Positions 15,661 to 57,550 of a DNA stretch of 64,000 bases are shown piece by piece. Within the stretch, counting starts at the first letter, position 1. The number at the start of each line of letters is the position of its first letter. The notes beneath the pieces were generated by a model, which ran no database searches, was not told the DNA's origin, and saw only the letters and a list, made by a program, of their open reading frames with translations. Location of the stretch: assembly GCA_021324305.1 (NCBI GenBank), contig JAJPJI010000007.1, forward strand, positions 1 through 64,000, in the 5' to 3' direction. The stretch comes from Gammaproteobacteria bacterium (lineage in GTDB: Bacteria; Pseudomonadota; Gammaproteobacteria; DSM-16500). The position numbers and the translations under genes were made by a program.

Positions 15661-16727
15661 GCTGTTTCTTCTTCAATCTGGATTACACCACGGCGAATTT
15701 GATCAAGCTCAATGGATTCAAATAACGCACGGAAATTACCTTCACCGAAACCTTCATCGCCTTTACGCTGGATGATTTCAAAGAACACCGGCCCTAACAT
15801 GTTTTTGGTAAAAATTTGCAATAACAATTTTTTGTCTTGCCTTGTTTCACCATCGATGAGAATGCGGTTTTTTTTCAGGCTCTCAAGAGGTTCGCCATGA
15901 TTGGGAAGACGCTTTTCAATGAGATCGTAGTAAGTGTCAGGTGTATCTAGAAATTCAAGTCCGGATTGGCGTAATGATTCGACGCTGCTGAATATGTGGT
16001 TTGTTCCAAGCGCAATGTGCTGTATTCCTTCACCATTAAAATCTTTGAGGAATTCCTCAATTTGTGACTTGTCATCTGATGATTCATTTAAAGGAATGCG
16101 GATTTTACCACATGGACTGGTCATTGCCTTACTTTTCAATCCCGTCACTCTGCCTTCGATATCGAAATAGCGAACTTCCTGAAAGTTGAAAAGACGGGTA
16201 TAGAAATCAGCCCATTCGACCATATTGCCGCGATGCAGATTATGCGTAACATGATCTATATAAGTAAGACCTGCGCCATTGTGTGACGATTGCTGTGATT
16301 GCAGAGACAAGAATTGATGCTCGTAATTTGAAACAGAATTCTTGTGATCAACAAAATAGATCAAGCTGTTGCCAACCCCATAAATCGCAGGCATGTCATA
16401 GACAGCCTTCTCATCCATGGGTTGGTAGGGAATGGCGCCATTTGCGAGGGCATGCTGGTACGCAGTTTTGGCATCCTTGACCCGGAAACCCATGGCTGAA
16501 ACAGATGCGCCATGCAGACCGGCAAAGCGGCTGGCCATACTGTCTCTGGTCAGGTTAACAAGAAAACGGATGTCATTTTGCTGATAAATGGTTACGTCGC
16601 ATGATTTATGTTTGGCGACGGGAATAAATCCCATGGATTCAAATTGCTGTGCAAGTTTGACGGGATCATTTGTGGTGAATTCAAGAAATTCAAAGCCATC
16701 TGTGCCAACGGGGTTATGAGTCTGCAT
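15657..16727 (-). CDS. hppD: 4-hydroxyphenylpyruvate dioxygenase
   Basis: 356 residues with two vicinal-oxygen-chelate halves. The iron ligands are visible as His in YIDHVTHNL, His in IQHIALGTNHIF and Glu in GPVFFEIIQRKGDEGFGEGN. It converts 4-hydroxyphenylpyruvate to homogentisate. It is the first gene of the seven-gene minus-strand aromatic operon, preceded by AAGGAGTG four bases before the ATG. A palindromic candidate operator lies just upstream at 16775-16791. Confidence 0.97.
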   Translation of the reverse strand: MQTHNPVGTDGFEFLEFTTNDPVKLAQQFESMGFIPVAKHKSCDVTIYQQNDIRFLVNLTRDSMASRFAGLHGASVSAMGFRVKDAKTAYQHALANGAIPYQPMDEKAVYDMPAIYGVGNSLIYFVDHKNSVSNYEHQFLSLQSQQSSHNGAGLTYIDHVTHNLHRGNMVEWADFYTRLFNFQEVRYFDIEGRVTGLKSKAMTSPCGKIRIPLNESSDDKSQIEEFLKDFNGEGIQHIALGTNHIFSSVESLRQSGLEFLDTPDTYYDLIEKRLPNHGEPLESLKKNRILIDGETRQDKKLLLQIFTKNMLGPVFFEIIQRKGDEGFGEGNFRALFESIELDQIRRGVIQIEEETA

Positions 16728-24543: not shown

Positions 24544-26604
24544 ATGATTCCAGAATTGTCTAAACACGCCAAACAGATTTTATTTACGCTCAGATTTAGT
24601 ATTCTTACTATTTTTGTTTCGCTGTTTATTATCACAACCCTGCTTATTATCTTCATCAGGTCGGTTGCCTTTTCTGACGAGTTGTCATATACGGCGAGAA
24701 AGCTGATTAAAGATATTTCGAATGAAGTGTTATACGAGTTGACAACCAGTATCAAGCCAGCTGAAGTTGCGGGAAAACTTTCAGCACAATTGATGGAAAA
24801 CAAGGTCTTGAGAATGGACCAGTCAGACCTTGTGGTCTATAGCTTTTATCTTGTCAAGACCATGCCGCTCATACAAGGCGCCTACTGGGGGGACGAATAT
24901 GGCAATTTTATTTATTCATGGAAAGATAATAATGGCACAGTTTCCAGCGATGTCATTACCCGCGGCAGTCAGGTAAAGCATGTCGTCATTAATCGTGATC
25001 GCCAGGGCAATATCATCAAAACATACGAATCGTCAGACCTTTCATTTGACCCAAGGGTGCGGCCCTGGTATGTGGGAGCCAAAACAAAAAAAGGTCCGGT
25101 ATGGACCGATATTTACCTGTTTTATCCCAGCCATGAATTTGGCATATCCGTTGGAACACCCGCCTATGATGAAAAAGGATATCTGCTGGGAGTATTTGGA
25201 CTTGACCTCAGCTTGAGGGACTTGAAAAAATTTGTCAGCGATCAAAGAGTCAGTAAACACGGCTATGCATTTATAATCACATCAAGAGAAGATCTGGTTG
25301 CGTTTCCAGAAAGAGACCCATTTACATTGGCCATCTCTCATCCCTATGAATTGACCAATGTGCATTCCATATCACTGCCAATAATAAACAAGTCAATTGA
25401 TATCTATAAAAAAACTGGGAACGAAGAGTTAGTCATCAAAAATGATAATGTCAACTATCTGGTTACCTATCAACCCGTGCCTGAACTCAAGGAATTGGGT
25501 TGGTTAATCGGCGTAGTTACACCAGTGAATGATTTTACGGGCTTTTTACAGCGAATAAATGTTGTAACATTGTTCATTTCTTTCATCACCCTGGCGATTG
25601 GAATTTATATTGTATCTAATCTTGTCACGCGTGTTGTCAGGCCAATCAATTCACTTGTCAAGGAAACAGAAAAAATACGCCAGTTCGATCTTGAAGGTGA
25701 ATTGAATGTAAAGTCAAGAATCAAGGAAATTGTAGTATTGAAAGACTCCATCCGGTCAATGAAGAAAGGGTTGATGCAGTTTCAAAAGTATGTTCCCAAG
25801 GTGTTGGTGCGGCAGTTAATTGAATCGGGACAGGATATCGAGGCGGGCGGCGTCAGAAAGGATCTGGTTGTGTTCTTTTCTGATATCGAGAATTTTACAA
25901 CAATCGCCGAGCATATGGATCCGGGTGAGCTGACTAAACAGATATGCGACTATTTCGAGGCGTTGACGCAAATTATTATTTCTGAGAAGGGAACAATTGA
26001 TAAATATATAGGCGATTCAATTATGGCATTCTGGGGCGCGCCATTACCTGAAGAACATCCATGGGAATGTGCTGCTAAAGCAGCGCTGCGATGCCAGCAA
26101 AAGGTGGCAGAACTCAATAAACAATGGGAGCTGCAAGGCAGGCCGAGTTTTAATACACGTATAGGAATCCATTTTGGCGAGACAATTGTTGGCAATATCG
26201 GCTCGTCTGAGCGCGTCAGTTACACGGCGCTGGGTGACACGATTAATACTACCAGCCGGCTGGAAAGCATTAATAAAATATATGCAACCAAAATTATTGT
26301 GAGTGATGTTGTTTATGAAAAGCTAAAGGACAATTTTGTACTGCGTCTGGTTGACCAAGTGATTGTTAAAGGCAAGAGCAAGCCGATTTATATCTATGAA
26401 TTGCTTGGCTCCAGCCGTGACGAGCTCTCATTCGATATTGACACCTATCGTGTTGAATTCGGGCGAGGATTCGGAGAATACCAACGGGAGGCGTGGGACA
26501 ATGCCATCCTGTATTTTCAAAATTGCCTGAAAATATATCCTCAGGACTCATTGGCAAAAATGTTCATTGAGCGATGTACCAATGCGAAAACGACCAAAAG
26601 CTGA
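24544..26604 (+). CDS. Membrane adenylate cyclase with Cache sensor and HAMP domain
   Basis: 686 residues. A membrane helix (about residues 17-40) is followed by a periplasmic double-Cache-like sensor (WYVGAKTKKGPVWTDIY, GVFGLDLSLRDLKKFV). A second helix lies near residue 340, then a HAMP domain and a class III cyclase domain. Metal-binding Asp residues lie in FFSDIENFTTIAEHMDPG and KYIGDSIMAFWGAP. The adenine-specifying pair Lys (IDKYIGD) and Asp (ALGDTINTTSRLE) is present, as are the transition-state Asn and Arg, so the product should be cAMP and not cGMP. A short helical tail (EYQREAWDNAILYF) is TPR-like. It would sense an extracytoplasmic small molecule. No partner gene is adjacent. Confidence 0.92.
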   Translation: MIPELSKHAKQILFTLRFSILTIFVSLFIITTLLIIFIRSVAFSDELSYTARKLIKDISNEVLYELTTSIKPAEVAGKLSAQLMENKVLRMDQSDLVVYSFYLVKTMPLIQGAYWGDEYGNFIYSWKDNNGTVSSDVITRGSQVKHVVINRDRQGNIIKTYESSDLSFDPRVRPWYVGAKTKKGPVWTDIYLFYPSHEFGISVGTPAYDEKGYLLGVFGLDLSLRDLKKFVSDQRVSKHGYAFIITSREDLVAFPERDPFTLAISHPYELTNVHSISLPIINKSIDIYKKTGNEELVIKNDNVNYLVTYQPVPELKELGWLIGVVTPVNDFTGFLQRINVVTLFISFITLAIGIYIVSNLVTRVVRPINSLVKETEKIRQFDLEGELNVKSRIKEIVVLKDSIRSMKKGLMQFQKYVPKVLVRQLIESGQDIEAGGVRKDLVVFFSDIENFTTIAEHMDPGELTKQICDYFEALTQIIISEKGTIDKYIGDSIMAFWGAPLPEEHPWECAAKAALRCQQKVAELNKQWELQGRPSFNTRIGIHFGETIVGNIGSSERVSYTALGDTINTTSRLESINKIYATKIIVSDVVYEKLKDNFVLRLVDQVIVKGKSKPIYIYELLGSSRDELSFDIDTYRVEFGRGFGEYQREAWDNAILYFQNCLKIYPQDSLAKMFIERCTNAKTTKS

Positions 26605-26667: not shown

Positions 26668-27636
26668 TTAGCTGCTTATCGGATGATCTTTAATCCATTC
26701 AGACCAGGTTCCGATGTATCCATTTAAAGATGCGCTGGCATACTGATAGAAATGCATCAAAAATCTGTATCGTTCTTCATAATATGGCTTTAAATCCGGA
26801 TCTTTTCTGTCAGTTTGCGCAAGGTCATAATAAGGCGATATCGATGCCTGACGCTTGATAATATCATTGAAAGAAACAGTATCGGCATTTTTTAACATGT
26901 CATACATGGCGAGAAATGTTGTTGCTCGTCCGTCCCCGCCGCGACAATGTAAATGTAACCAGGCATTCTTGGGCAGGTTTCTGGCAAGTGATACGAACCT
27001 GTCAACGTCATCGTTGCGAGGTGCCATATGATCACTGACAGTCAGGCGGACATATTCAAAACCTTCCTGCTCAGCAACTTGCTGTTCACTGTTAATTGAA
27101 TCGACATGCAAGCTGGTACCTTGAAGGTAATTGCCTGTCTTGAATTGTTCGGGTGTCAAAATATCGGAAATAGATGATTGAGATCGCAATGATTGTATCC
27201 AGTCCTGCTCGGCAGCGATGGCTTGTTGATAGGATTTTCCGAGATTGATCCAGTTATATTTGGTTGTCAGGGTGATTGCCTGATTGTTCAGAAATGCATG
27301 ATCTTCCTGGCGTAAATCAAGGTCTATCATTTTTTTATATTTGCCATCTGTCAATTTTTCGATTTTATCTGCTATTATTTTGAATCCGTTGGCGCTGGGT
27401 GCGCCGCTTGCGGAAACCCATAAATGTTTTAAACCTGATGTGTTACCTTTGTAAGCATCCATAATCATTTTGGCATATCGCCAATGTTTGACATCTTTAG
27501 TGGTTTTATCGGTATCCTGTACGATGCACGGATTTTGCATGCTTCCATCACAAGTATTGGTCTCAATTGCGAGCACAGGGTTGGCTGCAGTGACAAGAGG
27601 CAGCAAGACAGCAAGCGGGATAAGCTTGATTTTCAT
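26668..27636 (-). CDS. Secreted PTP-like inositol-polyphosphate phosphatase (cysteine phytase)
   Basis: 322 residues with a clear signal peptide (residues 1-23, ending NPVLA). The catalytic P-loop is H230-C231-RGGDG-R237, the Cys-x5-Arg motif, and the general acid Asp lies in TVSDHMAP (about residue 202). The stretch NLPKNAWLHLHCRGGDGR followed by MYDMLKN resembles the PTP-like phytase of Selenomonas (PhyA). That family removes phosphates stepwise from inositol hexakisphosphate. It should be exported to the periplasm or beyond. AAGGA lies before the ATG. Relatives in host-associated bacteria can act as phosphatases on host targets, but nothing here shows that. Confidence 0.87.
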   Translation of the reverse strand: MKIKLIPLAVLLPLVTAANPVLAIETNTCDGSMQNPCIVQDTDKTTKDVKHWRYAKMIMDAYKGNTSGLKHLWVSASGAPSANGFKIIADKIEKLTDGKYKKMIDLDLRQEDHAFLNNQAITLTTKYNWINLGKSYQQAIAAEQDWIQSLRSQSSISDILTPEQFKTGNYLQGTSLHVDSINSEQQVAEQEGFEYVRLTVSDHMAPRNDDVDRFVSLARNLPKNAWLHLHCRGGDGRATTFLAMYDMLKNADTVSFNDIIKRQASISPYYDLAQTDRKDPDLKPYYEERYRFLMHFYQYASASLNGYIGTWSEWIKDHPISS

Positions 27637-31741: not shown

Positions 31742-31813
31742 ATCGCTAGTTGAAAATTATAAAATTATAAAAATAACAAAAAATAACAATAAATCGACCG
31801 AGGAGTGGCAATA

Positions 31814-34800
31814 ATGTTAAGCGGTTCAAATACCAAACTCGATTTGCGACAAAAAAATGTCCTGGATAAATTGATCCAATATTTGAATCTGTATTCAAAT
31901 AAGCGAGATCAAACACGAAAGGAACAATTAATCAACTTAATGGGTAAAGGCTATTGCAGCGGATTTACTACCATATGGTTATATGCGAACTGGATTACAA
32001 CCCAGAAGGAAACAGGCAAGGAAAGAGATGATTTGATCTGGTTTAATAATATCACCAGGCAAATTGTAACGTGGGATGGTAGCAGTGAGATTACAATTGA
32101 GCAGCAACAGGAATTTGAAAGATTTCTGAGTCTAATCGAATTTTATCAGCATATTGATGAGTTCCTTCCAATTGGTCAGGGTGATATCGAAAAAAGCCTG
32201 GTTGACTCAAAAAACAGACAACCCAAAAAGCTTTATACATTAGGCGGTTTATTTACAGAAGATGAGGCTGCAGTAATTCTGCAGAGAATGCTGGATGAAA
32301 AAATGTTCGCTGACAAGCTTACTATATTTTCATCGCATAATCATGCAACTGGTTTATTTAATGATGGGTCGGACAAATATTTTTTTTATGATCCGAATAA
32401 TCCGGATGGCGCGGTCGAAATCAAAAACGGCAAGGAACTTGCCCAGGCCTTATTCAAGGCTTACAGGTTTACACCCGGGTTGCCTTCACCTTTAGGAGTG
32501 AGAATATTTGGATTTTCACCACTGGATAATCCCATTCCGCAAACAGAATTATTGAAGCACATGAGTGTGCTTGCAGATAATAATGGAATTATAAAAGATA
32601 AAAAATACTGCAATGGAATGAGCTGCCTGCATATGGCGGTCAGGGTTGGTGATATTGAAAGCGTGAAATTTCTTTTAGAGCAGGGCGTTGATGTCAATTA
32701 TTCGAATTCATCCAAGGAGGACGACGAAGCATTGGGTTCTCCGATACGTTTTGCCATTCAATGGAACAGGCCTGAAATTCTTCAGCTGCTCATTGATACC
32801 GGAAAGGTGGTGCTTAGATCAGAAGATTTATATTCTGCTGTCAGACACAAATCTGCATTGATGCTCAAAATATTATTTGATGCGCCAAACGCTCCAGACA
32901 AATCTTCGATACAATTAGATTTAATGCTTGAGTTAGCCATAAAAAATGGATTTTCTGATATTGTCTCTGTCTTGCTTGACTATGGCGCCAATCCATTGTC
33001 TGTACATGTCAGTGGCAAAACTTATATGGAGTTGGCTGTTGATTATGGATATGTCGATGTGCTGACGGTGTTTTTAAAGAAATTGATCTCAGACTCAAAG
33101 GATGTTACCAGTTATCAGAGCACTCTGGATAGACTTTTGACACTGGCAGTCAAACAACAGCATACACATGCAGTAAGGATATTGCTGGAGTACGGTGCAA
33201 ATGTTAATGCGAGATTCGATAATAATTCGACTGTGTTGCACTATGCTCTTGAATCCGGATATAGCGATATTGCTGAAATTTTAATGAAATCACCCGGCCT
33301 GGATTATTCCCTGATTGGCAAAGATGGACAAACCATGATTAACGCTGCATACGAAGGAATCAAAACATTACGCCAGGGAATTCAGCATTTGAAACAAGAC
33401 GTCACAGTTGCGAAATCATCTGATCAATTAAATGAAGCTGTTCGAAAGCTTAAATCCGCAGAAATTGAATATCTACAGTTTCAATCGCTTTTTAACCAAT
33501 TGAAAATATCGACTGATAATTGGACTGATGCCTATCACCATGCAGTTACGATCGGTGACCTTGATCAGGTCAAAGACATGGTTGCAGATAAAAAATCACT
33601 ATTATCCGATATTGGAGCATTAATAACCGCGACACGAAATGGTCATATACAGGTTATTGATTGGCTATTGTCACAAGATATCGATATCAATGCCCAGGTT
33701 AATGGAACGACGGCCTTACATGAAAGTTTGTATGGCGGTTTGAAGATAATTCAATTCTTGCTTGAACATAATGCGAATCCCAACAGTTTATATAAAAATA
33801 TGGTAAGACCTTTGTATACTGCCGCGCAGTTGGGCAATATTGAAATAATGCGGCTTTTAATTTCATATTCTGCTGATGTTAACATGGGTACAGTGGTTGG
33901 TGAAACTCCATTATCCGGTACTGTACGTACCGGAAATTTAGCGGCAGCCGAATTCCTGATAAAAGAAGCGCATGCGAGTTTGAATACTGATCAGGATTGT
34001 GAGGATAGTCATTTGCATCTTGCCATAGAATATAACAGATTGTCATTTGTCGAGTTATTTCTGCAAAACGGTGCTGACATATTCAAAAAAAATAATGCGG
34101 GTAAAACGCCTGTTCAGCTTGCAGCCGAGAAAGGTTGGAATGGCATCACCAAAGCTATTTTCACGCACATAGCTGTTAGCAGACAAGACAAATCATCACT
34201 GCTGCATATTCTGATAGAAATGGGATATACAGGTTTTATAAAAGAGGTATTATATTCGGAATATGGCATTGCATATGCAACAAGAGATGATGGTTATACA
34301 CCTATGCATATCGCAGCAGAGTGTGGTAACGAAGCGGCGGTGCAATTGCTGCTCGAAAAGGTCGGCAATGTGTTTAACGATGATAATGCAGAACAGGTAT
34401 CTCCTGTCGATCTGGCTTACAAGAATAATTTCGATAATATAGTTCTCATGATGATGAAGAGGACACCTTCACATTCATTGTCAATGGCTATCAAAAAAGG
34501 CTATGACTTTAAACGCATTATCTCAAAGCTGATAGAAGATGACTTGAAAGCAGTCGACTTCCAGGAATTACAAATTCAGGCGATTAAGGCTAAACAGTAC
34601 GATCTTGCAATCGACCTTCTCAATGCTGAGCTGCAATACAGCAATCCAAACGGGTATTCGATATTGCATCTGGCTGCCAAACGTGGATACTGCGAGGTGA
34701 TGGGCAGGATCATGGTCCATGACAAGAGTTTACTGAATGCTTTGGATAAGAATGGCAACACGCCATTGTTGCTTGCACTTGAGCATTCACAACTCAATGT

Positions 34801-34948
34801 AGCGGATTCATTGCTTGGAATTGAAGCAGTCAATATTCATGCAGCCAATCGTAAAACCGGCAATACGGCATTGCATCACGCATGCAGGATTGGTTCGGCA
34901 GATATCGTGCGTACACTTATGAATATAATGGCGCTGACGCAAATGTAA
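31814..34948 (+). CDS. Ankyrin-repeat protein with papain-like N-terminal domain; effector candidate (5' part of a frameshifted gene)
   Basis: 1044 residues in this frame. Residues 1-245 are not ankyrin: GYC48SGFTTIWLYANW, SSHNH177ATGLF and YFFYD193PNNPDG line up as a Cys-His-Asp triad in the order and context of C58/YopT-like papain-fold domains, also seen in some Legionella ankyrin effectors. From about 260 on there are many ankyrin repeats (for instance CLHMAVRVGDIESVKFLLEQGV, PMHIAAECGNEAAVQLLLE). AGGAG lies eight bases before the ATG at 31814. PmrA-type boxes lie upstream. The frame stops at 34948 in the middle of an ankyrin repeat; the sequence continues in another frame to 35346 (see next entry). 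Delivery to a host is inferred, not shown. Confidence 0.85.
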   Translation: MLSGSNTKLDLRQKNVLDKLIQYLNLYSNKRDQTRKEQLINLMGKGYCSGFTTIWLYANWITTQKETGKERDDLIWFNNITRQIVTWDGSSEITIEQQQEFERFLSLIEFYQHIDEFLPIGQGDIEKSLVDSKNRQPKKLYTLGGLFTEDEAAVILQRMLDEKMFADKLTIFSSHNHATGLFNDGSDKYFFYDPNNPDGAVEIKNGKELAQALFKAYRFTPGLPSPLGVRIFGFSPLDNPIPQTELLKHMSVLADNNGIIKDKKYCNGMSCLHMAVRVGDIESVKFLLEQGVDVNYSNSSKEDDEALGSPIRFAIQWNRPEILQLLIDTGKVVLRSEDLYSAVRHKSALMLKILFDAPNAPDKSSIQLDLMLELAIKNGFSDIVSVLLDYGANPLSVHVSGKTYMELAVDYGYVDVLTVFLKKLISDSKDVTSYQSTLDRLLTLAVKQQHTHAVRILLEYGANVNARFDNNSTVLHYALESGYSDIAEILMKSPGLDYSLIGKDGQTMINAAYEGIKTLRQGIQHLKQDVTVAKSSDQLNEAVRKLKSAEIEYLQFQSLFNQLKISTDNWTDAYHHAVTIGDLDQVKDMVADKKSLLSDIGALITATRNGHIQVIDWLLSQDIDINAQVNGTTALHESLYGGLKIIQFLLEHNANPNSLYKNMVRPLYTAAQLGNIEIMRLLISYSADVNMGTVVGETPLSGTVRTGNLAAAEFLIKEAHASLNTDQDCEDSHLHLAIEYNRLSFVELFLQNGADIFKKNNAGKTPVQLAAEKGWNGITKAIFTHIAVSRQDKSSLLHILIEMGYTGFIKEVLYSEYGIAYATRDDGYTPMHIAAECGNEAAVQLLLEKVGNVFNDDNAEQVSPVDLAYKNNFDNIVLMMMKRTPSHSLSMAIKKGYDFKRIISKLIEDDLKAVDFQELQIQAIKAKQYDLAIDLLNAELQYSNPNGYSILHLAAKRGYCEVMGRIMVHDKSLLNALDKNGNTPLLLALEHSQLNVADSLLGIEAVNIHAANRKTGNTALHHACRIGSADIVRTLMNIMALTQM

Positions 34949-35346
34949 AGAATCTTCAAGGTGTCACGCCGCTTCATGTCGCGTGCTCCCATGGCAACGA
35001 TTCGAGCGTGGATGCATTATTTGACTGTAGCGAATCTGGCAAGCAGGCTCGAATCGATGACTCCTATGCTGAGCTGGTAAAGATAGCGGCCAATTTATAT
35101 ATATTGGACAGACTCAAAATACGAAACTACATTGAATATCGTTCCGGCAAGGCAACTTATACCGGATGGTCGTTTGGACGCACAAAAGAACAAAAACTCG
35201 CCGCGGCAAAAGAAGTAGAAGGAATGGTCAGGATGCGCAAACGCAATGACGAGGTATTTCACAAGTGTCAAAAGGATATCAATAAGGGTGCCTTGCACAA
35301 GGTTGTCAACTCAATTATGACTCTCAGGCCAAGCAGAAGCACTTGA
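34930..35346 (+). pseudogene. Frame-shifted 3' end of the ankyrin gene
   Basis: In the -1 frame relative to the preceding gene, sequence from about 34925 reads EYNGADANVKNLQGVTPLH and then VACSHGNDSSVDALF, which completes the ankyrin repeat broken off at TALHHACRIGSADIVRTL. A single missing base near 34918-34930 explains both frames. After this last repeat comes a basic, helical C-terminal domain of about 100 residues (YTGWSFGRTKEQKLAAAKEV, ending LRPSRST). The intact protein would have about 1177 residues. In Legionella-type effectors the translocation signal lies at the C-terminus, so the break would remove it. No slippery heptamer is present. It is either a real mutation or a sequence error. 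Confidence 0.75.
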
Positions 35347-38976: not shown

Positions 38977-39015
38977 TTTCGAAAATTTGCATATTTTCGA
39001 AAAATAGCATAAGAT
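38977..39015 (+). promoter_or_regulatory. Perfect palindromic operator overlapping the promoter of the GntR gene
   Basis: TTTCGAAAAT (38977-38986), a six-base spacer TTGCAT, and ATTTTCGAAA (38993-39002) form a perfect inverted repeat with 10-base arms. The spacer TTGCAT can serve as -35, with a 17-base gap to TAAGAT (39010-39015) as -10. The GntR start follows 28 bases later, so a bound regulator would block RNA polymerase. Confidence 0.65.
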
Positions 39016-39043: not shown

Positions 39044-39736
39044 ATGTCAGAACAAAGCCGGAAATTAACCAAGGCGACCAAAGTGCAGGAATGCATACGC
39101 GAGGATATCATCGGAGGATTTTATGCGCCTGGTGACAGATTACAGATGGAAGCACTGAAGGAAAGGTATGGTGTAGGCTATAGCCCTTTGCGGGAAGCGC
39201 TTTCACGTCTCGTCAGTATGGGGCTGGTAGAAATGGAGGAGCAATGCGGTTTCAGCGTCGCACCGCAGACACTGGAAGAATTGCATGATCTTTACAACAT
39301 GAGAGCGTACATTGAGGCCCGCGCGCTCGAACTTTCCATCCGTCATGGTGATGATAGCTGGGAGGCGGATGTCGTAGCGAATTGGCACTGCTTTTCCAAA
39401 TATCTGGATCCCAAAAGAAATATGAATATTGTCAGCAATGAATGGGAAAGACTGCAGAAAAATTTTTTTTATGCGCTCGTCAAGGGCTGTCAATCACCTT
39501 GGTTGTTAAGGATTCATAATCTGTTGTACGACCAGGCATCAAGGTATCGGAATATATGTATCGCGAAATATAAAAATAATGAAAAGTCACTGCATAAGTA
39601 TATTAAGGAAATGCAGCAGCTCGTTGATGCGGTCTTGTCCAGAGATGTTGAAACGACAATCAGGCTATCGCGCATCAATTGGGATAATACTGTAAAAGTC
39701 ATAGCCAAATCATTACAGGCGAGATTAAAAAAATAA
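39044..39736 (+). CDS. GntR/FadR-family transcriptional regulator
   Basis: 230 residues. The N-terminal winged helix is typical (VQECIREDIIGGFYAPGDRL, then YGVGYSPLREALSRLVSMGLVEM), and a helical FCD ligand-binding domain follows (LHDLYNMRAYIEARALELSI). The FCD metal-binding His set is not fully evident. It is the first gene of a co-directional group of six and sits ten bases before the decarboxylase gene, so it is probably the local regulator. A perfect palindrome covers its promoter, which fits autoregulation. The ligand is likely an amino acid or carboxylate, but this is not determinable. Confidence 0.88.
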   Translation: MSEQSRKLTKATKVQECIREDIIGGFYAPGDRLQMEALKERYGVGYSPLREALSRLVSMGLVEMEEQCGFSVAPQTLEELHDLYNMRAYIEARALELSIRHGDDSWEADVVANWHCFSKYLDPKRNMNIVSNEWERLQKNFFYALVKGCQSPWLLRIHNLLYDQASRYRNICIAKYKNNEKSLHKYIKEMQQLVDAVLSRDVETTIRLSRINWDNTVKVIAKSLQARLKK

Positions 39737-39746
39737 GTGTCATCAT

Positions 39747-41048
39747 ATGGGTCAGCATCCTGCCAATTATTTTTCAGAGATTGATAATACACTTGCCGGT
39801 CAACTGGCCGAAAAGTTTGGAACGCCGGTTTTCATCATGGATAAAAGAGGGTTGTTGCAGCGTTATTATGATTTACATGCCGCTGTAACACAGCGCTATA
39901 AACATTCCATGATCGCAGTTTCGTATAAAACAAATTTTTTAAAAGGCATCCTGGCGTTATTGCACGGCGTGGGTGCGCATGCAGAGGTGGTGTCTGGTGT
40001 CGAATATGCAGTAGCAAAGGAAATTCGCTTGCCACATCAAAGAATTGTTTTTAATGGACCAATGAAAACACGCAGTGAATTATTGATGGCAATCAACGAC
40101 AATGCACTCATCAACTGTGATCACGAAGATGAAATCGACCTGATTGAGCAAATTGCAAAAGACCAGAGAAAGGTGGTGCCAATTGGATTGCGCATTTATT
40201 TCAGGGAGGCACAATCTTCCTGGAGCAGGTTCGGATTTCAGGTTGACAGCGCCTTGTCAGATACTGCCACGGAGGCGCTTATCAGGAGAATTAGAGTGTC
40301 ACCAAATCTGCATCTGGCTGGATTGCATGCACACATAGGCACGAATATCCGCGACGTGCAGCATTTTTCCAGACTGGGAAAGTATTTGTCATCTTTCGCT
40401 TCGTTACTTAAAGCAAGGTTCAATATCGAGCTGGATTGGATAGATGTGGGTGGCGGTCTGGCCGGTATTAGTCCGCGCAAGGATGAGAACCGCGAAGTTC
40501 CATATGAGTTGCCGGATGCACACGAATATGCTGATGCCATTATTACGCCTTTGCTTGGATACATAAACAGTTTGACTAAACCGCCACTACTGATTTTCGA
40601 GCCAGGACGCACTTTGTTTGAAGCTTCGGGCGGTTTGTTGACACGGGTAATTGGCAGGCGAAGTGTGACAGCTGGCAAATCACAGGCATTGATACTGGAT
40701 GCGGGCATGAATGCGTTGTCTACCTGTTATCTTTATGATTTCCCTATTCGGAATTTTGCAGATAACAGCGATTATGTTTTAACGAGGCTACTGGGGCCAA
40801 CCTGTAATCAGGCCGATCAGCTGCATACACCCATAGTGATGCCTTCTTTGAACATCGATGATCTCTTGCTTTTTTATGGTGTTGGTTCATATTGCATGGC
40901 ATTCAGTTATTCATTCATCCGGTTCCGGCCAGGAGTGATTATTTGGCATGGGGACACGTTCTCCGAATGGATCAGACATCCAGAGACGTTATCGTCTAAC
41001 GCGATGATTGGACATGTCCCGGAATCATTTGCGAGGATGAATGTGTGA
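39747..41048 (+). CDS. PLP-dependent decarboxylase, fold type III (LysA/ornithine decarboxylase-like)
   Basis: 433 residues. The PLP lysine is K61 in AVSYKTNFLKG; HAHIGT, the phosphate-binding VGGG, FEPGRTLFEASG, a catalytic-Cys region LLGPTCNQADQL and GVGSYCMAFSYSFIRF are all in the expected order of diaminopimelate/ornithine decarboxylases. The closest named type is LysA, but the genome position, next to an N-hydroxylase and a MetRS-like gene, points to a pathway-specific amino-acid decarboxylase. It could remove CO2 from a hydroxylated or hydrazine-bearing amino acid, or supply lysine. Its stop overlaps the start of the next gene (GTGTGA). Confidence 0.85.
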   Translation: MGQHPANYFSEIDNTLAGQLAEKFGTPVFIMDKRGLLQRYYDLHAAVTQRYKHSMIAVSYKTNFLKGILALLHGVGAHAEVVSGVEYAVAKEIRLPHQRIVFNGPMKTRSELLMAINDNALINCDHEDEIDLIEQIAKDQRKVVPIGLRIYFREAQSSWSRFGFQVDSALSDTATEALIRRIRVSPNLHLAGLHAHIGTNIRDVQHFSRLGKYLSSFASLLKARFNIELDWIDVGGGLAGISPRKDENREVPYELPDAHEYADAIITPLLGYINSLTKPPLLIFEPGRTLFEASGGLLTRVIGRRSVTAGKSQALILDAGMNALSTCYLYDFPIRNFADNSDYVLTRLLGPTCNQADQLHTPIVMPSLNIDDLLLFYGVGSYCMAFSYSFIRFRPGVIIWHGDTFSEWIRHPETLSSNAMIGHVPESFARMNV

Positions 41049-42601
41049 TCAACGAGATGAAAACTTTTTTAATTGTTCCTTCTGTACCTACTCCCAACGG
41101 TCCTTTGCATCTTGGTCATATTGGGGGACCATATTTAAGCGCCGATATTCTTGCACGTTATTTGCGCATGAGAGGAAACCGCGCATTGATAATCAGCGGG
41201 ACCGATAGCTATGAATCATATGTTACTGCCAGGGCAAGCAAGGAAAACCAGCCGATATCTGATATCTGCAACTATTATCATCATCAGATTGATAAAGACC
41301 TGAAGGCCATGCAGATCGAAATGAATGCGTTTGTCAACCCATTATCCGAACAATGGGATCAAATGTATCGCCAATGGCATTACCATATTTTGCATAAATT
41401 GCGAAACCAGGGTTCAATTCAGGAAATAAACGAGATTGTGCTATGGGATCATCACAGTAAACGCTATCTGACTGGCTGCTGGCTGAATGGGCAATGTCCG
41501 CTTTGTCGTGCGAACGTGACGGGATACTTTTGTGAAAATTGCGGCGGTCATTTTCGTCCCGAGGAGGTTGTTCATCAATATTCTTACGCGGTGCATACTG
41601 TAAAAAATCTTTTTTTATGCGTTCCAACAACGGGATTGGTACTGAAAGGAATTAATTATTCTATTCGTGAGCGTTATCAGCATTACATCAGGCAACAAAA
41701 TGGACTTCTCAGATTGACAGCGAACAGCGACTGGGGATTGCCTTATTCTGAATCTGCCAGATTGTTCAATTATGGGTTCATGTTTGCATATTTTTTGATG
41801 CTTGGGGAAATTGCCAGAGTCATGCTGGGAGCCAGTGTTAATGCATTTCAAGCGGATTCTGATATCGTGACAATAGCCAGTTTTGGTGTTGATAATGCTG
41901 TGCCATTTCTTGCAAGTGCTCATGGTATAACAGCTGCATGTCAGGAATACAAGACGTTTGATTATTATCTGGTAAATTATTTTTATCATCTTGAAGGCAG
42001 TAAATTTTCAACTTCACGTCGTCATGCCGTATGGGTGAATGATATCGTCGATAATAAAGGATTGACCAGTGATATTGTGCGTTTCTATCTGGCGTCAATA
42101 AATGTGAGAGAAGGGAGTGGCAATTTTTCGCTGCAGGATTTTCTATCCTGCAATCTGAACACAAGAAACTGGATTCAGCAGCGCATCAATAACGTCCTTC
42201 CTGTCGTTACATTGCCTGGCTCCGGGGTGATGGATAGCGTGTTCATGCGGCAGCTGGATGAAATTCTGCTATTACAGTATCGCGCATTGGATCCAGAACA
42301 GTTCGCTCCTCATGAAGTCACTCCACTTATTCATGCCTGGCTTGAATTCGGAAATTCGATAGCGCATTTATCCGAAAATTATTTCTGGTGGTTAAAAGGA
42401 TTATGTTTATTAATTTATCCTGTCATGCCTTATACAGGCCAGCAGCTCTGGGAAATATTAGGTTATGCCGGCATGCCCAGGATAAATGGTTTTAACGAAC
42501 GGCCGGAATTACCAATTCAGAGAAATAAACAAATAAATACAAATGAGATTAATCCGGATTTGCACTTGCGGGAAAACAAATATGATAAAACTCGAACATG
42601 A
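41045..42601 (+). CDS. Methionyl-tRNA-synthetase-like adenylating enzyme (hydrazine synthetase component)
   Basis: 518 residues of class I aminoacyl-tRNA-synthetase type. The HIGH motif is PTPNGPLHLGHI (residues 22-25 HLGH), a Cys4 zinc knuckle lies at C151-xx-C154 and C163-xx-C166, and the KMSKS loop reads K320-FSTS. The MetRS tRNA-anticodon domain is short and altered and no C-terminal dimer domain is present. Housekeeping MetRS is longer. Such MetRS-like domains, joined to a cupin, activate an amino acid and load it onto N-hydroxy-lysine in hydrazine-forming enzymes of actinobacterial pathways (the s56-p1, triacsin and formycin families). The GTG start has GAGGA seven bases upstream. Neighbours are an N-hydroxylase and a cupin. 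Confidence 0.85.
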   Translation: MINEMKTFLIVPSVPTPNGPLHLGHIGGPYLSADILARYLRMRGNRALIISGTDSYESYVTARASKENQPISDICNYYHHQIDKDLKAMQIEMNAFVNPLSEQWDQMYRQWHYHILHKLRNQGSIQEINEIVLWDHHSKRYLTGCWLNGQCPLCRANVTGYFCENCGGHFRPEEVVHQYSYAVHTVKNLFLCVPTTGLVLKGINYSIRERYQHYIRQQNGLLRLTANSDWGLPYSESARLFNYGFMFAYFLMLGEIARVMLGASVNAFQADSDIVTIASFGVDNAVPFLASAHGITAACQEYKTFDYYLVNYFYHLEGSKFSTSRRHAVWVNDIVDNKGLTSDIVRFYLASINVREGSGNFSLQDFLSCNLNTRNWIQQRINNVLPVVTLPGSGVMDSVFMRQLDEILLLQYRALDPEQFAPHEVTPLIHAWLEFGNSIAHLSENYFWWLKGLCLLIYPVMPYTGQQLWEILGYAGMPRINGFNERPELPIQRNKQINTNEINPDLHLRENKYDKTRT

Positions 42602-43904
42602 TATATATGATTTGCTTGGTGTGGGTATAGGTCCGTTTAATTTGAGCCTGGCAGCGTTAATGTCGCCGCTGAAATCAACCAACAGCATATTTTTTGAACG
42701 TCGTAAATCATTTGTGTGGCATCCCGGATTGCTGTTGCCGAACGCTGAAATTCAAGTAAATTATCTCAAGGACCTGGTCACGCTGGTTGATCCAACCAAT
42801 CCTTACTCATTCATAGCCTATCTGGCGAAACAAAAGCGTTTGTATCGTTTCATGAATTCACGCTTTCAAAAAGTATTACGTGCGGAGTTCAGCCAGTATT
42901 TACATTGGGTAAGCCGGTCATTGACTAATCTTCGCTTTGACGAAAAGGTAGAGGATATAGGATTTGACGGCTCTTCATTTGTAGTGTCAACGACAGCGCG
43001 CACAGTCCGTGGTAGGCATTTAGCACTAGGTAGTGGTCTGACTCCATATGTTCCTGAGTGTGCAAGACAGTATCTGGGCGAAAATGTTTACCACAGTCAT
43101 GATTTATTAAATCATGCAGCAGATTGGAAAGGATTAAGGGTTGCCGTGATTGGAGGAGGCCAAAGCGGTGCTGAAGCCGTCCACTACATCCTGAGTGATT
43201 CTACTAATTTACCCAAACAATTAACCTGGGTAACCAAAAGAAATATTTTTTCTCCCATGGATGATTCAGTATTCGCAAACGAATATTTTACGCCAAACTA
43301 TAGCGAATATTTCTTCAGTCTTTCTGAAGATAAAAGACAGCGTTTATTGGAAGATCAAAAATTGGCTAGTGATGGAATCTCATCGGACTTGCTCGAATCA
43401 ATTTATAAAAAGCTCTACATCTACGAATTTATTGAGCAATACGGTCGTTTTTTCCGGCTTGTTGGTAATCATGAACTAACCAATGTCGGGAACAATGGGA
43501 ATGCAATCAGTTTAATGTTGAAGGAATGTGATTCAGGCGAAAAACACATGTGTACGGCGGATATAGTGATTTTAAGCACAGGGTATGACTGGCAAATGCC
43601 AGTGTATCTCAATTCACTGTCTGAGCGTATCCCGTTGAATAATGGTCGATTCATCATTAATTCAGATTATTCAATTGCATGGGATGGTCCTGAATCCTGC
43701 CGGATATATGCTCAAAACGCTGCCAGACATTCTCACGGCATCGCAGATCCTAACCTCAGCCTGATGGCATGGCGTAGCGCAAAAATCATAAACAGTATCG
43801 TGCAAGATGTTGTTTATGATCTTGCTAACGCCGAAACAGGAATGGATTGGCAAGGCTTTGCTGGTAAAACCGAAGAGGAAACAAGATATGTTGCATGCGC
43901 TTAA
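42582..43904 (+). CDS. L-lysine/L-ornithine N-monooxygenase
   Basis: 440 residues of the class B flavin N-hydroxylase family (IucD/PvdA/SidA). The FAD motif is GVGIGPFNLSLAAL, the substrate region LLPNAEIQVNYLKDLVTLVDPTNPYSF, the NADPH motif VAVIGGGQSGAEAVHYI, and a late LSTGYDW motif is present. It hydroxylates the side-chain amine of lysine or ornithine. In siderophore clusters it feeds an NRPS or an acyltransferase; none is here. Beside MetRS-like and cupin genes it fits the first step of hydrazine formation. Start at 42582, overlapping the previous gene by 20 bases; a longer frame from 42543 lies deeper in that gene. Confidence 0.9.
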   Translation: MIKLEHDIYDLLGVGIGPFNLSLAALMSPLKSTNSIFFERRKSFVWHPGLLLPNAEIQVNYLKDLVTLVDPTNPYSFIAYLAKQKRLYRFMNSRFQKVLRAEFSQYLHWVSRSLTNLRFDEKVEDIGFDGSSFVVSTTARTVRGRHLALGSGLTPYVPECARQYLGENVYHSHDLLNHAADWKGLRVAVIGGGQSGAEAVHYILSDSTNLPKQLTWVTKRNIFSPMDDSVFANEYFTPNYSEYFFSLSEDKRQRLLEDQKLASDGISSDLLESIYKKLYIYEFIEQYGRFFRLVGNHELTNVGNNGNAISLMLKECDSGEKHMCTADIVILSTGYDWQMPVYLNSLSERIPLNNGRFIINSDYSIAWDGPESCRIYAQNAARHSHGIADPNLSLMAWRSAKIINSIVQDVVYDLANAETGMDWQGFAGKTEEETRYVACA

Positions 43905-44229
43905 TGAAATACAGCCAAAATTGAATTTATCCATGGTTGAGCTTATTGCTCCAGGTGTGATTGTCCACCCGGTTGATTTTAGCGGCAGAAATGTCAATCC
44001 ACCATTCAAGGCGACTTGCTTTGAAGTAATGCCGGGATGCTCTACGCCGCCTGACCAGCATGAGGTGCAAGAATGCTGGATTATCATGAAAGGCTCCGGC
44101 ATTCTCGAATTCGCCGCGAAGCAGCACGTCATCAGGGAGAAGGATGTTCTTTATTTTGCGTCGCGCGAGCTTCATCAGATTTTTAATGATGGAAGCGAGA
44201 CGTTGATCATTTTTTCAATTTACTGGTAA
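43888..44229 (+). CDS. Small cupin (hydrazine synthetase component candidate)
   Basis: 113 residues, one cupin domain. Metal ligands expected from the cupin pattern are H58 and E62 in PPDQHEVQECWIIMKGSG and H96 in SRELHQIFND. GAGG lies before the ATG at 43888, and the start overlaps the N-hydroxylase end by 17 bases. In known hydrazine synthetases a zinc-binding cupin, fused to a MetRS-like domain, rearranges the O-aminoacyl N-hydroxylysine ester into an N-N-bonded product. Here the cupin is encoded separately but translationally coupled to the pathway genes. Confidence 0.85.
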   Translation: MLHALNEIQPKLNLSMVELIAPGVIVHPVDFSGRNVNPPFKATCFEVMPGCSTPPDQHEVQECWIIMKGSGILEFAAKQHVIREKDVLYFASRELHQIFNDGSETLIIFSIYW

Positions 44230-44236
44230 CTGGGTT

Positions 44237-45289
44237 ATGCGCGATTGGGCGGATATTATCATCGTCGGCGGCGGGATTTCCGGCTGCGCGATTTTTTATG
44301 AACTTTCCAGAAGTACATCGCTAAAAGTAATGCTGCTGGAAAAAAATTGTATTGCAAGTGGAAGCACTGCCCAATCTGGTGGATTTATTCGTAAATTTAA
44401 CACTGATGCTTATCTTCGGCGTCTGGCGGATGACAGCTTTGATTATTATCAGCACTTTGCCAGGCATGTTGGAGGATCTTGCGGGTTCAGGACTGAATAT
44501 TTTCAGTATCGTTTACCTTATCCGCTGTCGGATGAGACTCAGGCGTGCATAGAAGGATTACAGGCATCCGGTTATCCGTTATCTCTATCACTTTCCAGCA
44601 GTGAATGCGTTGTCAATGAATCAATGGCTGCAAGCATTGATCCCAAGTCAGCATGTCGTGCGTGGGTAAACGCTGCTGTACGGCATAATGGAATTGTGTA
44701 TCAGAGGACATCTGTTGATGCAATTCTGACTGAAAACGCCAGGATATATGGAGTGCAGACAACGCGGGGAGATATCATGTCAACTTATGTCGTATTAAGC
44801 GCAGGGATCATGAGCGCGGCAATCCTGGATCAGCTTGATATAAAATCGGATATCACAGTCAAATCGTTCCAATATCATGTGTACAAGCACGCCGCTCATT
44901 TGGTTGATTCAAGTTATATTGATTTAATCGATGGCTATTACCTCTTGCCGCTACGCAGCGGGGACGCTATTGCAGGTCGCCTGAGCGAGGACAGGAATGC
45001 TGATCCCGTGTCCGTTGGCGAAACGGCTGTTGATTATCAGGTTGATACAATGTTACATCAGCTTGTCTCTCAACGGATTCAGGGCCTTCGAGAATATGCT
45101 GTCTCGGATATCAAGACAGGTTATGATGCATTTACTACTGATGAGCGTGGCATGGTGAATGTTATGCCGCAAGTGGCGGGTTTGATTGTTGCGTCAGGCT
45201 GGAGCGGCGGCGGTGTCAAGCTGGCACCTGCAATCGCAAAAAAAGTGCTGGCTATCATTCAGCAGGATGTGATAGCTAAGGTATGTTAG
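44237..45289 (+). CDS. FAD-dependent oxidoreductase of the D-amino-acid/glycine oxidase family
   Basis: 350 residues, DAO fold. The FAD motif is IIIVGGGISGCAIFYEL, followed by EKNCIASGSTAQSGGFIRKF, and the C-terminal FAD contact is GLIVASGWSGGGVKLAPAIAK. Glycine-oxidase-like members cleave C-N bonds by amine oxidation. In the hydrazinoacetate pathway such a flavoprotein oxidises the N-N-linked lysine-glycine adduct and releases the hydrazine acid. It lies seven bases after the cupin gene and is the last of the group. Confidence 0.87.
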   Translation: MRDWADIIIVGGGISGCAIFYELSRSTSLKVMLLEKNCIASGSTAQSGGFIRKFNTDAYLRRLADDSFDYYQHFARHVGGSCGFRTEYFQYRLPYPLSDETQACIEGLQASGYPLSLSLSSSECVVNESMAASIDPKSACRAWVNAAVRHNGIVYQRTSVDAILTENARIYGVQTTRGDIMSTYVVLSAGIMSAAILDQLDIKSDITVKSFQYHVYKHAAHLVDSSYIDLIDGYYLLPLRSGDAIAGRLSEDRNADPVSVGETAVDYQVDTMLHQLVSQRIQGLREYAVSDIKTGYDAFTTDERGMVNVMPQVAGLIVASGWSGGGVKLAPAIAKKVLAIIQQDVIAKVC

Positions 45290-55315: not shown

Positions 55316-55405
55316 CAAAACACTCATTGTTAATTCAGAATGAAATGTAACAAAGGGTATTGTTGTCGGATTGACATCATCTATTCAGATAAGGAGATTA
55401 TGCAC

Positions 55406-57550
55406 ATGTCTTTTAAATTCCTGCCATTTAAACAAATTGAAGAAAATCTGGTTGCATTGATCGCAAAACTTTTTGAAGAACACGAAAAAACAAAAAGCCA
55501 GATAAATGAAAAACGACAGGCTCAACTGGATACACTTGATAATTTGTTTGCGCAATTAAGAGCGTTGACTGCGGTTGTTGGTCGTGAGGCCCTGAAAAAG
55601 TCTATCGAATCCAATCTAAGACAGCTAAATGATAAAATTGCGACACAGCCACTGAATGAAGAACAGCTGGTGTTGAAGCATCAATTGGAAGATGTAAAGC
55701 CGTTGAGTGAAGAACAGCTTATTCAGAGAAAGAAAATTGCTGAACAAGAAGCACAACTTGAATTAAAGAAGAAGCTGGCTGATGTCAAAGCATTAAGTGA
55801 AGAACAAATTTCCAGATTAAAGACATTGCGTGCAGCAGCAAAACCATTGAATGACCAGGATGAAGAGGAATTACGAAATCTTGAAGTTCTGGAATATCAG
55901 AATGAACAGAAAAAGAAAGTGGCAGATGTCAAAGAGTTGAGCGAAGAACAACGAAAATTGATCGAATTAGAAGAACGGAACGCCAAGAAAAAAGAACTGG
56001 CTGATATTGAATTAACCGTCATAAATAAAAAGAGATATGAACAGGAAAGAGCTGCTTTATTAAAGTTCCAGGAAGAACTCGAAAAATCATATGAAAATGA
56101 AAACGATGAGGATCAAAAAGCAAAAGAAGAACGAGAGGCAAGAGAAGTCAGGGTGCTTACTGATGAACAGAGAGCTATCATTGCTACCGGTGTCTTGCTA
56201 AACATTAAATCTGAAATCAAAAAAGAATATGAAGGTTTGAGCAATGCCTTGATTGGTTTGGTAAAAACAAACAAGCCAGAAAATAGCATCTTGTATTCTG
56301 GAATTGATGGTGTGATTGGTGTGACCGCAGAAAACAAGCTTGATGAAAAATCAGAAATTGAAGCCAGAAATGCCGCAGCTCAATTTGTTGACAGCGTCAA
56401 ACTCGTCAGCAAGTTTGATAAATCAAGACTCAAGAAAGTGCCATCTTCTGTCATTGAGAAAGAAAGACTGGCTTCAGAGGCGCTGCAAAAACAACTCAGA
56501 GAAATTGAGTCAATGCAGAAAGATGCCAGAAACACAAAACCAATTCCAACAGTTAAAAGCGATCCAAAACTGGTACTCAAGGATTTGACCAGCCCGGAAC
56601 TCCTCAAACCAAGCAAGAGCTTGCTTGAGCAGGCCCAGGACAGAAGAATGGATGTCAAGAAAAAGAAAATGGTGACAGAGCAGATTGCAAGTTATACGCC
56701 TGATTCAGAAGTCGGCCGTTATATACGGGATGAAAAATCAAGAAGCAGCTATGTTCAGGTGCACCATTTCATCAATCCAAAAATAGAAGATGTTGGCATC
56801 ACTGCTGGCGTGGTTCAGACAAGTGACGAAGTATCAAGTGAAGATCAATTTCAGGCAAATGCGGTTGCTGAATTCAGGGCTGCCATGCTGCAAAATGTAG
56901 ACAGACCTGTTGAGCCGACTCTGGGCACGGTAAGAGAGCTGAATGAAGAGGAAGCTAAAGTATATAAACACGAAAGCGAGCTTCTGAAGTTAGCGATCAT
57001 GACCGCAGAAAAGAAACTCCAGGACAAGGCTTATAAGGATGAAAAAGAGAAGGCTGAAATCGAACAGAAATTGAAAGAAGATAAAGCTGCATATGAACTT
57101 TATCTGCAATCAATCAAAGCCTTCATGAAAGAAAAAAATACATGGACAGGTGTTAAAGATCCTTCTGATAAAGAAGCTGATCATTTTGATGGCTACAAAC
57201 ATGAATTTGAAACGGTGATGATTACTGAATACCGTAAAAAACAGGTATCCAGACAGGTTGAAGTCCAGGCAGTTACTTCAACAAGACTGGAAGCTGATGA
57301 ATACTATTCAGGTCTGCGTACAGATCCTTCCATGTATGTTGGTAACCGTGTGAAAACCGAGCAGCTGGAAAAGAAAAATGCTGAACTGACTAATGAAGTA
57401 TTGCTCAAAGAGAGAGTCAGCATCATGGGTGTGTTTGGCATGGCTCATGAAAAAATCAGAAAGTCAAAACGTGTGGAAATGGATGTTAAAGTGGACAACC
57501 GCAGCGTGGTTGCTCCGGTTGAACATGCGACTTTCCGCATGAAAAAATAA
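55406..57550 (+). CDS. Repetitive coiled-coil protein; effector candidate
   Basis: 714 residues, highly charged (Glu, Lys and Gln rich), almost wholly predicted helical and coiled-coil. Near-repeats of D-V-K-x-L-S-E-E-Q occur at about residues 96, 126 and 174, with looser copies (PLNEEQ at 82, KPLNDQDEEE at 146). There is no signal peptide, membrane helix or enzyme motif, and I recognise no family. AAGGAG lies nine bases before the ATG at 55406; other in-frame ATGs at 55340 and 55400 are not well placed. A PmrA-type promoter lies upstream and an intrinsic terminator downstream, so it is a single-gene unit. Long coiled-coil proteins are common among Legionella effectors; effector status is inferred from the promoter and protein type only. 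Confidence 0.8.
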   Translation: MSFKFLPFKQIEENLVALIAKLFEEHEKTKSQINEKRQAQLDTLDNLFAQLRALTAVVGREALKKSIESNLRQLNDKIATQPLNEEQLVLKHQLEDVKPLSEEQLIQRKKIAEQEAQLELKKKLADVKALSEEQISRLKTLRAAAKPLNDQDEEELRNLEVLEYQNEQKKKVADVKELSEEQRKLIELEERNAKKKELADIELTVINKKRYEQERAALLKFQEELEKSYENENDEDQKAKEEREAREVRVLTDEQRAIIATGVLLNIKSEIKKEYEGLSNALIGLVKTNKPENSILYSGIDGVIGVTAENKLDEKSEIEARNAAAQFVDSVKLVSKFDKSRLKKVPSSVIEKERLASEALQKQLREIESMQKDARNTKPIPTVKSDPKLVLKDLTSPELLKPSKSLLEQAQDRRMDVKKKKMVTEQIASYTPDSEVGRYIRDEKSRSSYVQVHHFINPKIEDVGITAGVVQTSDEVSSEDQFQANAVAEFRAAMLQNVDRPVEPTLGTVRELNEEEAKVYKHESELLKLAIMTAEKKLQDKAYKDEKEKAEIEQKLKEDKAAYELYLQSIKAFMKEKNTWTGVKDPSDKEADHFDGYKHEFETVMITEYRKKQVSRQVEVQAVTSTRLEADEYYSGLRTDPSMYVGNRVKTEQLEKKNAELTNEVLLKERVSIMGVFGMAHEKIRKSKRVEMDVKVDNRSVVAPVEHATFRMKK

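Follow-up and report, generated by a model that had tools for sequence, protein, structure and literature searches.

The window analysed here is a stretch of 64,000 nucleotides from a Gammaproteobacteria bacterium (GenBank assembly GCA_021324305.1, contig JAJPJI010000007.1), and our subject is a six-gene operon at positions 39044..45289, all on the + strand, which we propose to be a hydrazine biosynthesis system. A palindrome, TTTCGAAAATTTGCATATTTTCGAAA (38977..39002, no strand), is a putative operator and lies 41 bases ahead of the first gene, which encodes a GntR/FCD regulator (39044..39736; PF00392 55.7 bits, PF07729 56.5 bits). This regulator is a distant relative of CsiR, whose NCBIfam model scores 170 bits against it, below the cut-off of 218. 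Downstream follow a pyridoxal 5'-phosphate (PLP)-dependent decarboxylase of the alanine racemase (AR) fold and FigC/FslC type (39747..41048), a protein resembling methionyl-tRNA synthetase (MetRS) that is predicted to be one half of a standalone hydrazine synthetase (41045..42601; PF09334 147 bits), a flavin N-hydroxylase of the Lys/Orn oxygenase family (42582..43904; PF13434 357 bits), an RHS1-like zinc cupin as the predicted other half (43888..44229; Cupin_2), and a DAO-family flavoprotein (44237..45289; PF01266 131 bits). An earlier reading made from the sequence only had described six co-directional genes with overlaps at 41045/41048, 42582/42601 and 43888/43904. The coordinates hold and all six open reading frames (ORFs) are uninterrupted; the overlaps amount to 4, 20 and 17 bases, and gaps of 10 and 7 bases separate regulator from decarboxylase and cupin from DAO gene. 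The MetRS-like ORF begins with GTG, and longer starts are open to the hydroxylase (at 42543) and the cupin (at 43807). The family names given in that reading (GntR, PLP decarboxylase, MetRS-like, N-hydroxylase, cupin, DAO) were recovered by Pfam and NCBIfam, for the cupin by Pfam only.

The six genes recur in identical order and with identical flanks in a second genome of the same genus (G010, locus L023), so the operon is not a chance assembly. In both genomes the operon is flanked by hemB and relA/spoT at one end and by kdpABC at the other end, and protein identity between the two loci ranges from 39 to 64% across the six genes. Nonsynonymous divergence (dN) is 0.30-0.61 for the operon genes, compared with 0.14 for kdpB and 0.17 for relA, while synonymous sites are saturated or nearly so in each of the eight genes compared. 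Judged by these rates, the operon is evolving faster than its neighbours, yet under clear purifying selection. An exchanger gene at 45581 is missing from the G010 locus and therefore probably does not belong to the unit. We located relA in 11 of the 17 genus genomes (E 1e-120), the window's genome and G010 included. In the five further relA surroundings that were fetched, neither an operon nor a kdp gene lies nearby (the G016 stretch reaches only 6.3 kb, to the contig end); since surroundings without the operon also lack kdp, they offer no clean empty site for comparison.

The MetRS-like protein and the cupin

The closest solved structure to the MetRS-like protein is a domain of PyrN (9l8v; also 9vq4, 9vqj, 9vr2), both by profile and by comparison of the predicted model with solved structures by VIA. 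PyrN, from the pyrazomycin pathway, is a proven hydrazine synthetase (PMC8664883). It differs from the window protein in that its cupin and MetRS-like domain are fused and that it uses glutamate, and identity is 24% over 486 residues. In an alignment of 30 sequences (A2; the window and those 29 of the 30 loci from the scan described below that are long enough), the HLGH and KFST motifs and four Cys are invariant. Both results bear out the sequence-only reading, which had named HLGH, KFSTS and a Cys4 knuckle and had proposed comparing the protein with hydrazine synthetases.

The gene might instead be a spare methionyl-tRNA synthetase, e.g., an inhibitor-resistant one. Its overall fold is that of MetRS, a single-sequence search gives a tie with Pyrococcus MetRS, and it passes the NCBIfam model for methionine--tRNA ligase (570.7 bits vs a cut-off of 551). 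The window protein and MetRS have an Asp in common at the D52 position, which PyrN and Rhodococcus RHA1 do not keep. However, the genome encodes a separate genuine MetRS, to which identity is 17% over aligned columns; KFST replaces KMSKS, and the methionine pocket is altered, so that the protein has neither the pocket nor the KMSKS motif of a tRNA-charging enzyme. In addition, the neighbours of this gene in those subfamily loci that were read are the hydroxylase gene and, on contigs long enough to show it, the cupin gene. Low identity to the genome's own MetRS and PyrN as the nearest structure make the spare-enzyme explanation hardly credible. NF008863, the NCBIfam model named methionine--tRNA ligase, matches at E 1e-60 in two of 36 genomes of the order (one genus) and two of 369 drawn from the class, the window's genome counted in each, and in 0/14 control genomes. 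This model appears to describe the hydrazine-synthetase subunit, and its label hides such genes in databases.

The columns of the methionine pocket are the same or nearly so in the window, G010 and Legionella, where bulky Phe/Tyr residues occur and no charged side chain is present besides shared Asp residues; in the glutamate-using RHA1 protein, Arg replaces the Phe of the window. These columns hint at a small neutral amino acid as the one activated.

For the cupin, the sequence-only reading had suggested the same comparison, and here the outcome is divided. The best PDB match by sequence is 5UQP (RHS1), and the predicted zinc ligands are D56, H58, E62 and H96. The last three are H, E and H in 31/31 rows, and the first is D in 28, E in two and H in one (30 rows are distinct, L031 and L047 being one contig, and one row is RHS1 itself; alignment A4 holds 18 cupins). 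The predicted model has a cupin fold (pLDDT 91.6), but the fold comparison did not single out RHS1, and its ranking is neutral.

The predicted composition, an RHS1-like zinc cupin and a partner nearest to a proven synthetase with an N-hydroxylase alongside, resembles that of Rhodococcus RHA1, which has a separate zinc cupin, MetRS-like protein and hydroxylase with the same four metal ligands and hydroxylase anchor letters. On overexpression of these genes, RHA1 produced a lysine-glutamate conjugate (PMC8664883). It differs in coupling glutamate to N6-hydroxylysine and in its low MetRS-like identity (~22% over aligned columns), and in the 17 kb fetched from it neither the decarboxylase nor the DAO of the window has a match (E 1e-4). 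Hydroxylases paired with a cupin/MetRS enzyme are also known from Spb38-40 (s56-p1), Tri26-28 (triacsin), Apy9-11 (actinopyridazinone) and Por9/Por11, with Spb39, Tri27 and Apy10 as FAD oxidoreductases that cleave the hydrazine (PMC11705231). Those synthetases are didomain enzymes, and the review section that covers them mentions no decarboxylase gene, whereas the window proteins are unfused and accompanied by one; the same review also lists hydrazine enzymes from Colwellia, Ralstonia, Corallococcus and Pseudomonas (PMC11705231). Unfused MetRS-like, hydroxylase and cupin genes occur likewise on Robbsia plasmid p1 and in Aquimarina, Flavivirga and Trinickia (L033, L055-L057), whose fetched stretches hold no match to the window GntR or decarboxylase (E 1e-4). 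Enzyme families, catalytic residues, operon conservation and the MetRS-like model support what the sequence-only reading had proposed, and on these grounds the operon very probably forms N-N bonds.

Relatives of the operon

A pattern scan of 84,980 species genomes, built on a three-sequence alignment and two short peptides and bound to have missed relatives, yielded 30 loci. Nine show 43-50% identity and belong to Legionella (seven), Fluoribacter and Candidatus Obscuribacterales. Further loci are a metagenome-assembled genome (MAG) labelled Chloroflexi, a contig identical to that of G104, and a second Obscuribacterales contig whose match ends after 579 bases. The 18 more distant ones come from actinomycetes (13), Bacteroidota (two), Trinickia, an Alteromonadaceae MAG and a Bdellovibrio MAG. 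The same group of 13 rows (the window, G010, G104, eight Legionella/Fluoribacter loci, Obscuribacterales L038 and MAG L040) is recovered in the MetRS-like and hydroxylase trees, with support of 94 and 95 in the SH-like approximate likelihood ratio test (SH-aLRT). Both are quick trees with this support measure only and several long branches; L047 and L060 were excluded from the first and L047 from the second. Because both trees hold this group, the genes move as a set and, provided that the MAG labels are correct, have crossed phyla.

The regulator, MetRS-like and hydroxylase genes occur together in the window, G010, L038, L040 and the eight Legionella/Fluoribacter loci, and the cupin is found in all of these but L040, where the contig ends after the hydroxylase. 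In G104 no GntR gene adjoins the operon and a giant ankyrin/leucine-rich repeat gene stands there instead. The decarboxylase is present in four operons (window, G010, G104, L038), and the DAO gene in the same four and in the L040 MAG, there on another contig (L106). The Legionella/Fluoribacter operons (L039, L041-L046, L064) read GntR-MetRS-like-hydroxylase-cupin, and those eight genomes contain no decarboxylase or DAO match (E 1e-10). A GNAT match follows the operon in 8/8 of them (in L042 only as a 47-residue piece), in L038 and in L106; two GNAT queries found none in the window, L023 or L031 (E 1e-3). On L106 (1-2920), an MFS transporter gene comes after the cupin, DAO and GNAT genes of the Chloroflexi-labelled MAG and lies on their strand; its protein possibly exports the product.

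Among plasmid records, 95 also match at E 1e-10, but only two over 80% of the length, and some of the 95 may be plain MetRS genes. On a Klebsiella pneumoniae IncFII plasmid (L037, 6697-9446), a MetRS-like gene has genes for a KamA radical SAM protein and an MFS transporter as neighbours; the fetched stretch holds no hydroxylase or cupin match.

Proposed starting amine, decarboxylation and cleavage

The best PDB match of the window hydroxylase is a putrescine enzyme, and its top scores are with putrescine and cadaverine hydroxylases. This would suit a diamine-first route, in which the decarboxylase makes cadaverine, putrescine or a similar diamine that is then hydroxylated and coupled to an amino acid by the MetRS-like protein and cupin. 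Hydrazine synthetases are indeed known to work with N-hydroxyputrescine and N-hydroxydiaminopropane (PMC11705231), the Robbsia plasmid cluster appears to be an example, and among the enzyme genes of the operon that of the decarboxylase comes first. The residues that bind the amine point elsewhere. SidA holds ornithine via K107, N293, N323 and S469, which are conserved in PvdA and KtzI, whereas the diamine enzyme DesB is without anchors of this type and has an opposing Asp instead (PMC8009421). The window hydroxylase keeps K63, N233 and S393, as do PvdA, MbtG and the RHA1 enzyme; only one of the two SidA Asn is retained, and the other is likewise missing in the RHA1 enzyme, which reportedly works on lysine. 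Over 33 hydroxylase rows (32 distinct), the anchor position is Lys in 24, Asn in eight and Ala in one. All eight Asn rows are the Legionella/Fluoribacter hydroxylases (8/8), and the single Ala row is the Robbsia plasmid enzyme, which carries the complete diamine set A/L/D/G. In the hydroxylase tree, Robbsia falls with DesB, DfoA and FbsI, while the window enzyme groups with RHA1 apart from the diamine enzymes. The diamine signature, i.e., loss of the anchoring Lys with Leu, Asp and Gly elsewhere, is thus present in Robbsia, which serves as an internal positive control, and absent from the window. Residue columns and tree overturn the diamine chemistry suggested by the best PDB match, and from the retained anchors we consider an amino acid the likely substrate. 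We regard the diamine-first route as unlikely, also because the decarboxylase has no acidic residue for a free side-chain amine and because the Chloroflexi-labelled MAG, although perhaps incomplete, combines a Lys-type hydroxylase with no operon decarboxylase.

The Robbsia andropogonis cluster itself (plasmid p1, L033, 5598-11853) consists of unfused MetRS-like, hydroxylase and cupin genes and adjoins genes for a diaminobutyrate transaminase and an aminotransferase-family protein. By its sequence it likely makes a diamine hydrazine, perhaps from 1,3-diaminopropane.

The nearest solved relative of the decarboxylase is the N-citrylornithine decarboxylase FigC (7kh2, 285.9 bits), followed by diaminopimelate decarboxylase (138.1 bits). 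The substrate of FigC is an ornithine that already carries an acyl group on its side-chain amine: the FigC pocket is opened for a bulky substituent, the Asp that reads the free amine in ornithine decarboxylase and others is Met355, and the specificity helix has Thr/Thr/Tyr in place of Asp or Arg (PMC7857480). The window enzyme shares with FigC/FslC the motifs HIGTNIR, WSRFG and GP-x-C-x-Q-x-D-x-L-H and a non-acidic residue beside the catalytic Cys. Its loop reads C353-N-Q-A-D, within the C-N-Q-A/K-D of the four operon decarboxylases, and no acidic residue follows the Cys; in LysA of this genome, CESSD stands in place of CNQAD, and the helix stretch carries Arg (in our reading R343 of the FigC paper) in place of the Thr of the window enzyme. 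Differences from FigC are a Leu for one of the two specificity-helix Thr and the replacement of the citrate-contacting His357 by Ala or Lys in the operon decarboxylases (Ala in the window), so citrate is not implied as part of the substrate.

FslC-like decarboxylases and N-hydroxylases are both known from siderophore loci, and the NCBIfam FslC model scores 321 bits against the window enzyme, under its cut-off of 500. A hydroxamate or rhizoferrin-like siderophore locus with the MetRS-like and cupin genes as bystanders is nevertheless very improbable. The IucA/IucC partner of FigC/FslC is without a match in the window's genome (92% complete), which speaks against a siderophore; G010 has one, on another contig. 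In line with the sequence-only reading, a scan of the ORFs between 9186 and 63914 (short ones only in part) gave no match to nonribosomal peptide synthetase (NRPS), polyketide synthase (PKS) or NRPS-independent siderophore synthetase (NIS) families, and no NRPS family match lies near the operon. Moreover, 13 relatives keep the MetRS-like protein and the hydroxylase together.

In the simplest reading, the decarboxylase takes an amino acid whose side-chain nitrogen is derivatised, and the N-N conjugate is the most likely such substrate. By analogy with FigC, whether decarboxylation would follow coupling is an evenly balanced question. Coupling before decarboxylation has a parallel in rhizoferrin, and none was found for hydrazine biosynthesis in the literature consulted. 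The gene content of the Chloroflexi-labelled MAG, which also has the DAO, fits a tailoring role of the decarboxylase better than a precursor role, with the same caveat of completeness. The Legionella branch can be read either way: it lacks the hydroxylase anchor as well as the decarboxylase and the DAO, and as one branch it amounts to one comparison. Alternatively, the free N-omega-hydroxy amino acid could be decarboxylated before coupling, or decarboxylation could come after DAO cleavage, so that the enzyme never meets the coupled hydrazine. An N-hydroxylated side chain should be less charged than a free amine and would suit the loop Asn; the pocket of FigC, opened for a bulky substituent (PMC7857480), argues by analogy against this order, which we think rather improbable. 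Second FigC-like decarboxylases are encoded in Obscuribacterales genomes at L103 1366-2814 (35%) and L101 (32%, with an internal stop).

The DAO flavoprotein is a relative of glycine/sarcosine oxidase (best match 58 bits), in which D297 aligns with the Arg of LRPGT in glycine oxidase. Asp occupies this position in 5/5 operon DAOs and in two further flavoproteins, one encoded next to the cupin-MetRS gene of Sinorhizobium and the other next to a MetRS-like gene of Bdellovibrio; the Trinickia protein (L057) has Phe there and the Virgisporangium protein (L058) Met. Identity to the Sinorhizobium flavoprotein, which stands in here for Spb39 and Apy10, is 19%. The predicted activity is oxidation or cleavage of a C-N bond in the hydrazine, on one side or the other. 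We lean towards an aminoalkylhydrazine plus a keto acid as products, because decarboxylation would be pointless if the lysine half were discarded.

As a whole, we find it moderately likely that this is a self-contained, probably autoregulated cupin/MetRS hydrazine operon with two separate synthetase subunits, working as follows. The N-hydroxylase would generate N-omega-hydroxy lysine, ornithine or diaminobutyrate. The MetRS-like protein would adenylate a second, perhaps small and neutral, amino acid and transfer it to the hydroxylamine oxygen rather than to tRNA, and the zinc cupin would turn the unstable ester into an N-N bond. The FigC-like decarboxylase would strip the carboxylate of the lysine/ornithine half only once the side-chain nitrogen is derivatised, and the DAO flavoprotein would then oxidise or cleave a C-N bond, giving a decarboxylated hydrazine (e.g., an aminoalkylhydrazine) or a hydrazino acid. 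The GntR protein would control only this operon via one palindromic operator. Sequence and model comparison provide the families, catalytic residues, conservation and operator, from which we infer the reaction, the amino acid, the order of the last two steps, the product and operator binding. Several points weigh against the scheme: pocket letters allow no more than a guess at the second amino acid, the hydroxylase scores best with diamine enzymes, and the organism is known only through the 36-genome group of its order. More tentative is the fuller picture of a compact cross-phylum pathway with one dedicated operator, in which FigC-like decarboxylation of an N-N conjugate before oxidative cleavage yields a decarboxylated hydrazine such as a polyamine-mimicking aminoalkylhydrazine. 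In the Legionella branch, loss of the carboxylate anchor of the hydroxylase together with decarboxylase and DAO may mark a switch of starting amine.

The core, a cupin/MetRS hydrazine synthetase with an N-hydroxylase, is already known. What we did not find described are the FigC-like decarboxylase step, an operator closely matched once per genome and the cross-phylum subfamily. Our literature search returned no paper on this operon, none uniting hydrazine, decarboxylase, N-hydroxylase and cupin, and none uniting hydrazine, cupin and Legionella; subscription papers of the Matsuda group, outside this search, may include relatives. In a paper on Legionella secondary metabolism, 'hydrazin' and 'cupin' are both missing from the main text (PMC5126622). 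Only a small number of enzymes form N-N bonds, and the review section draws most of its cases from actinomycetes (PMC11705231). The operon offers a small, unfused six-gene system whose subfamily reaches eight Legionella/Fluoribacter genomes, and it and its relatives probably make an unrecognised hydrazine-type chemical, to judge from sequences and models.

Putative operator and other genes of the window

A palindrome with the consensus TCGAWWATTTRCAAATTNTCGAAAAT lies upstream of the regulator gene in 13/13 aligned loci. The pattern was derived from these same loci, so its presence there is by construction and the informative result is the lack of a second close match. In the window, the scan gave two matches, which are one site on both strands (expected 0.06). 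Across the 13 whole genomes (2.8-4.8 Mb), the operon promoter, assigned by coordinates, carries the operator with 0-1 mismatch in 12 (the G010 site has three), and none has a second site at 0-1 mismatch. Two second sites occur overall at two mismatches, in G404 and G406, and up to three mismatches the pattern gives 1-7 matches per genome vs 0-6 for the reversed control. The operator is presumably bound by the GntR protein. Because no second close match exists in the 13 genomes, the operon that encodes this regulator is probably its single main target, which would make the regulator autoregulated. One close operator per genome makes the inducer, and thereby the product, directly searchable.

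Elsewhere, the window encodes enzymes of aromatic amino acid breakdown (biopterin-dependent hydroxylase, 4-hydroxyphenylpyruvate dioxygenase (HPPD), homogentisate dioxygenase and an FAA hydrolase) together with alanine dehydrogenase (9186-16727). A dCache adenylate/guanylate cyclase (24544-26604) and a PTP-like phytase family protein (26668-27636) follow. At 31805-35346, a 1047-residue ankyrin-repeat protein is followed by an overlapping ORF in another frame with further weak ankyrin matches, and at 55340-57550 lies a 736-residue ORF with zero Pfam matches at 1e-6.

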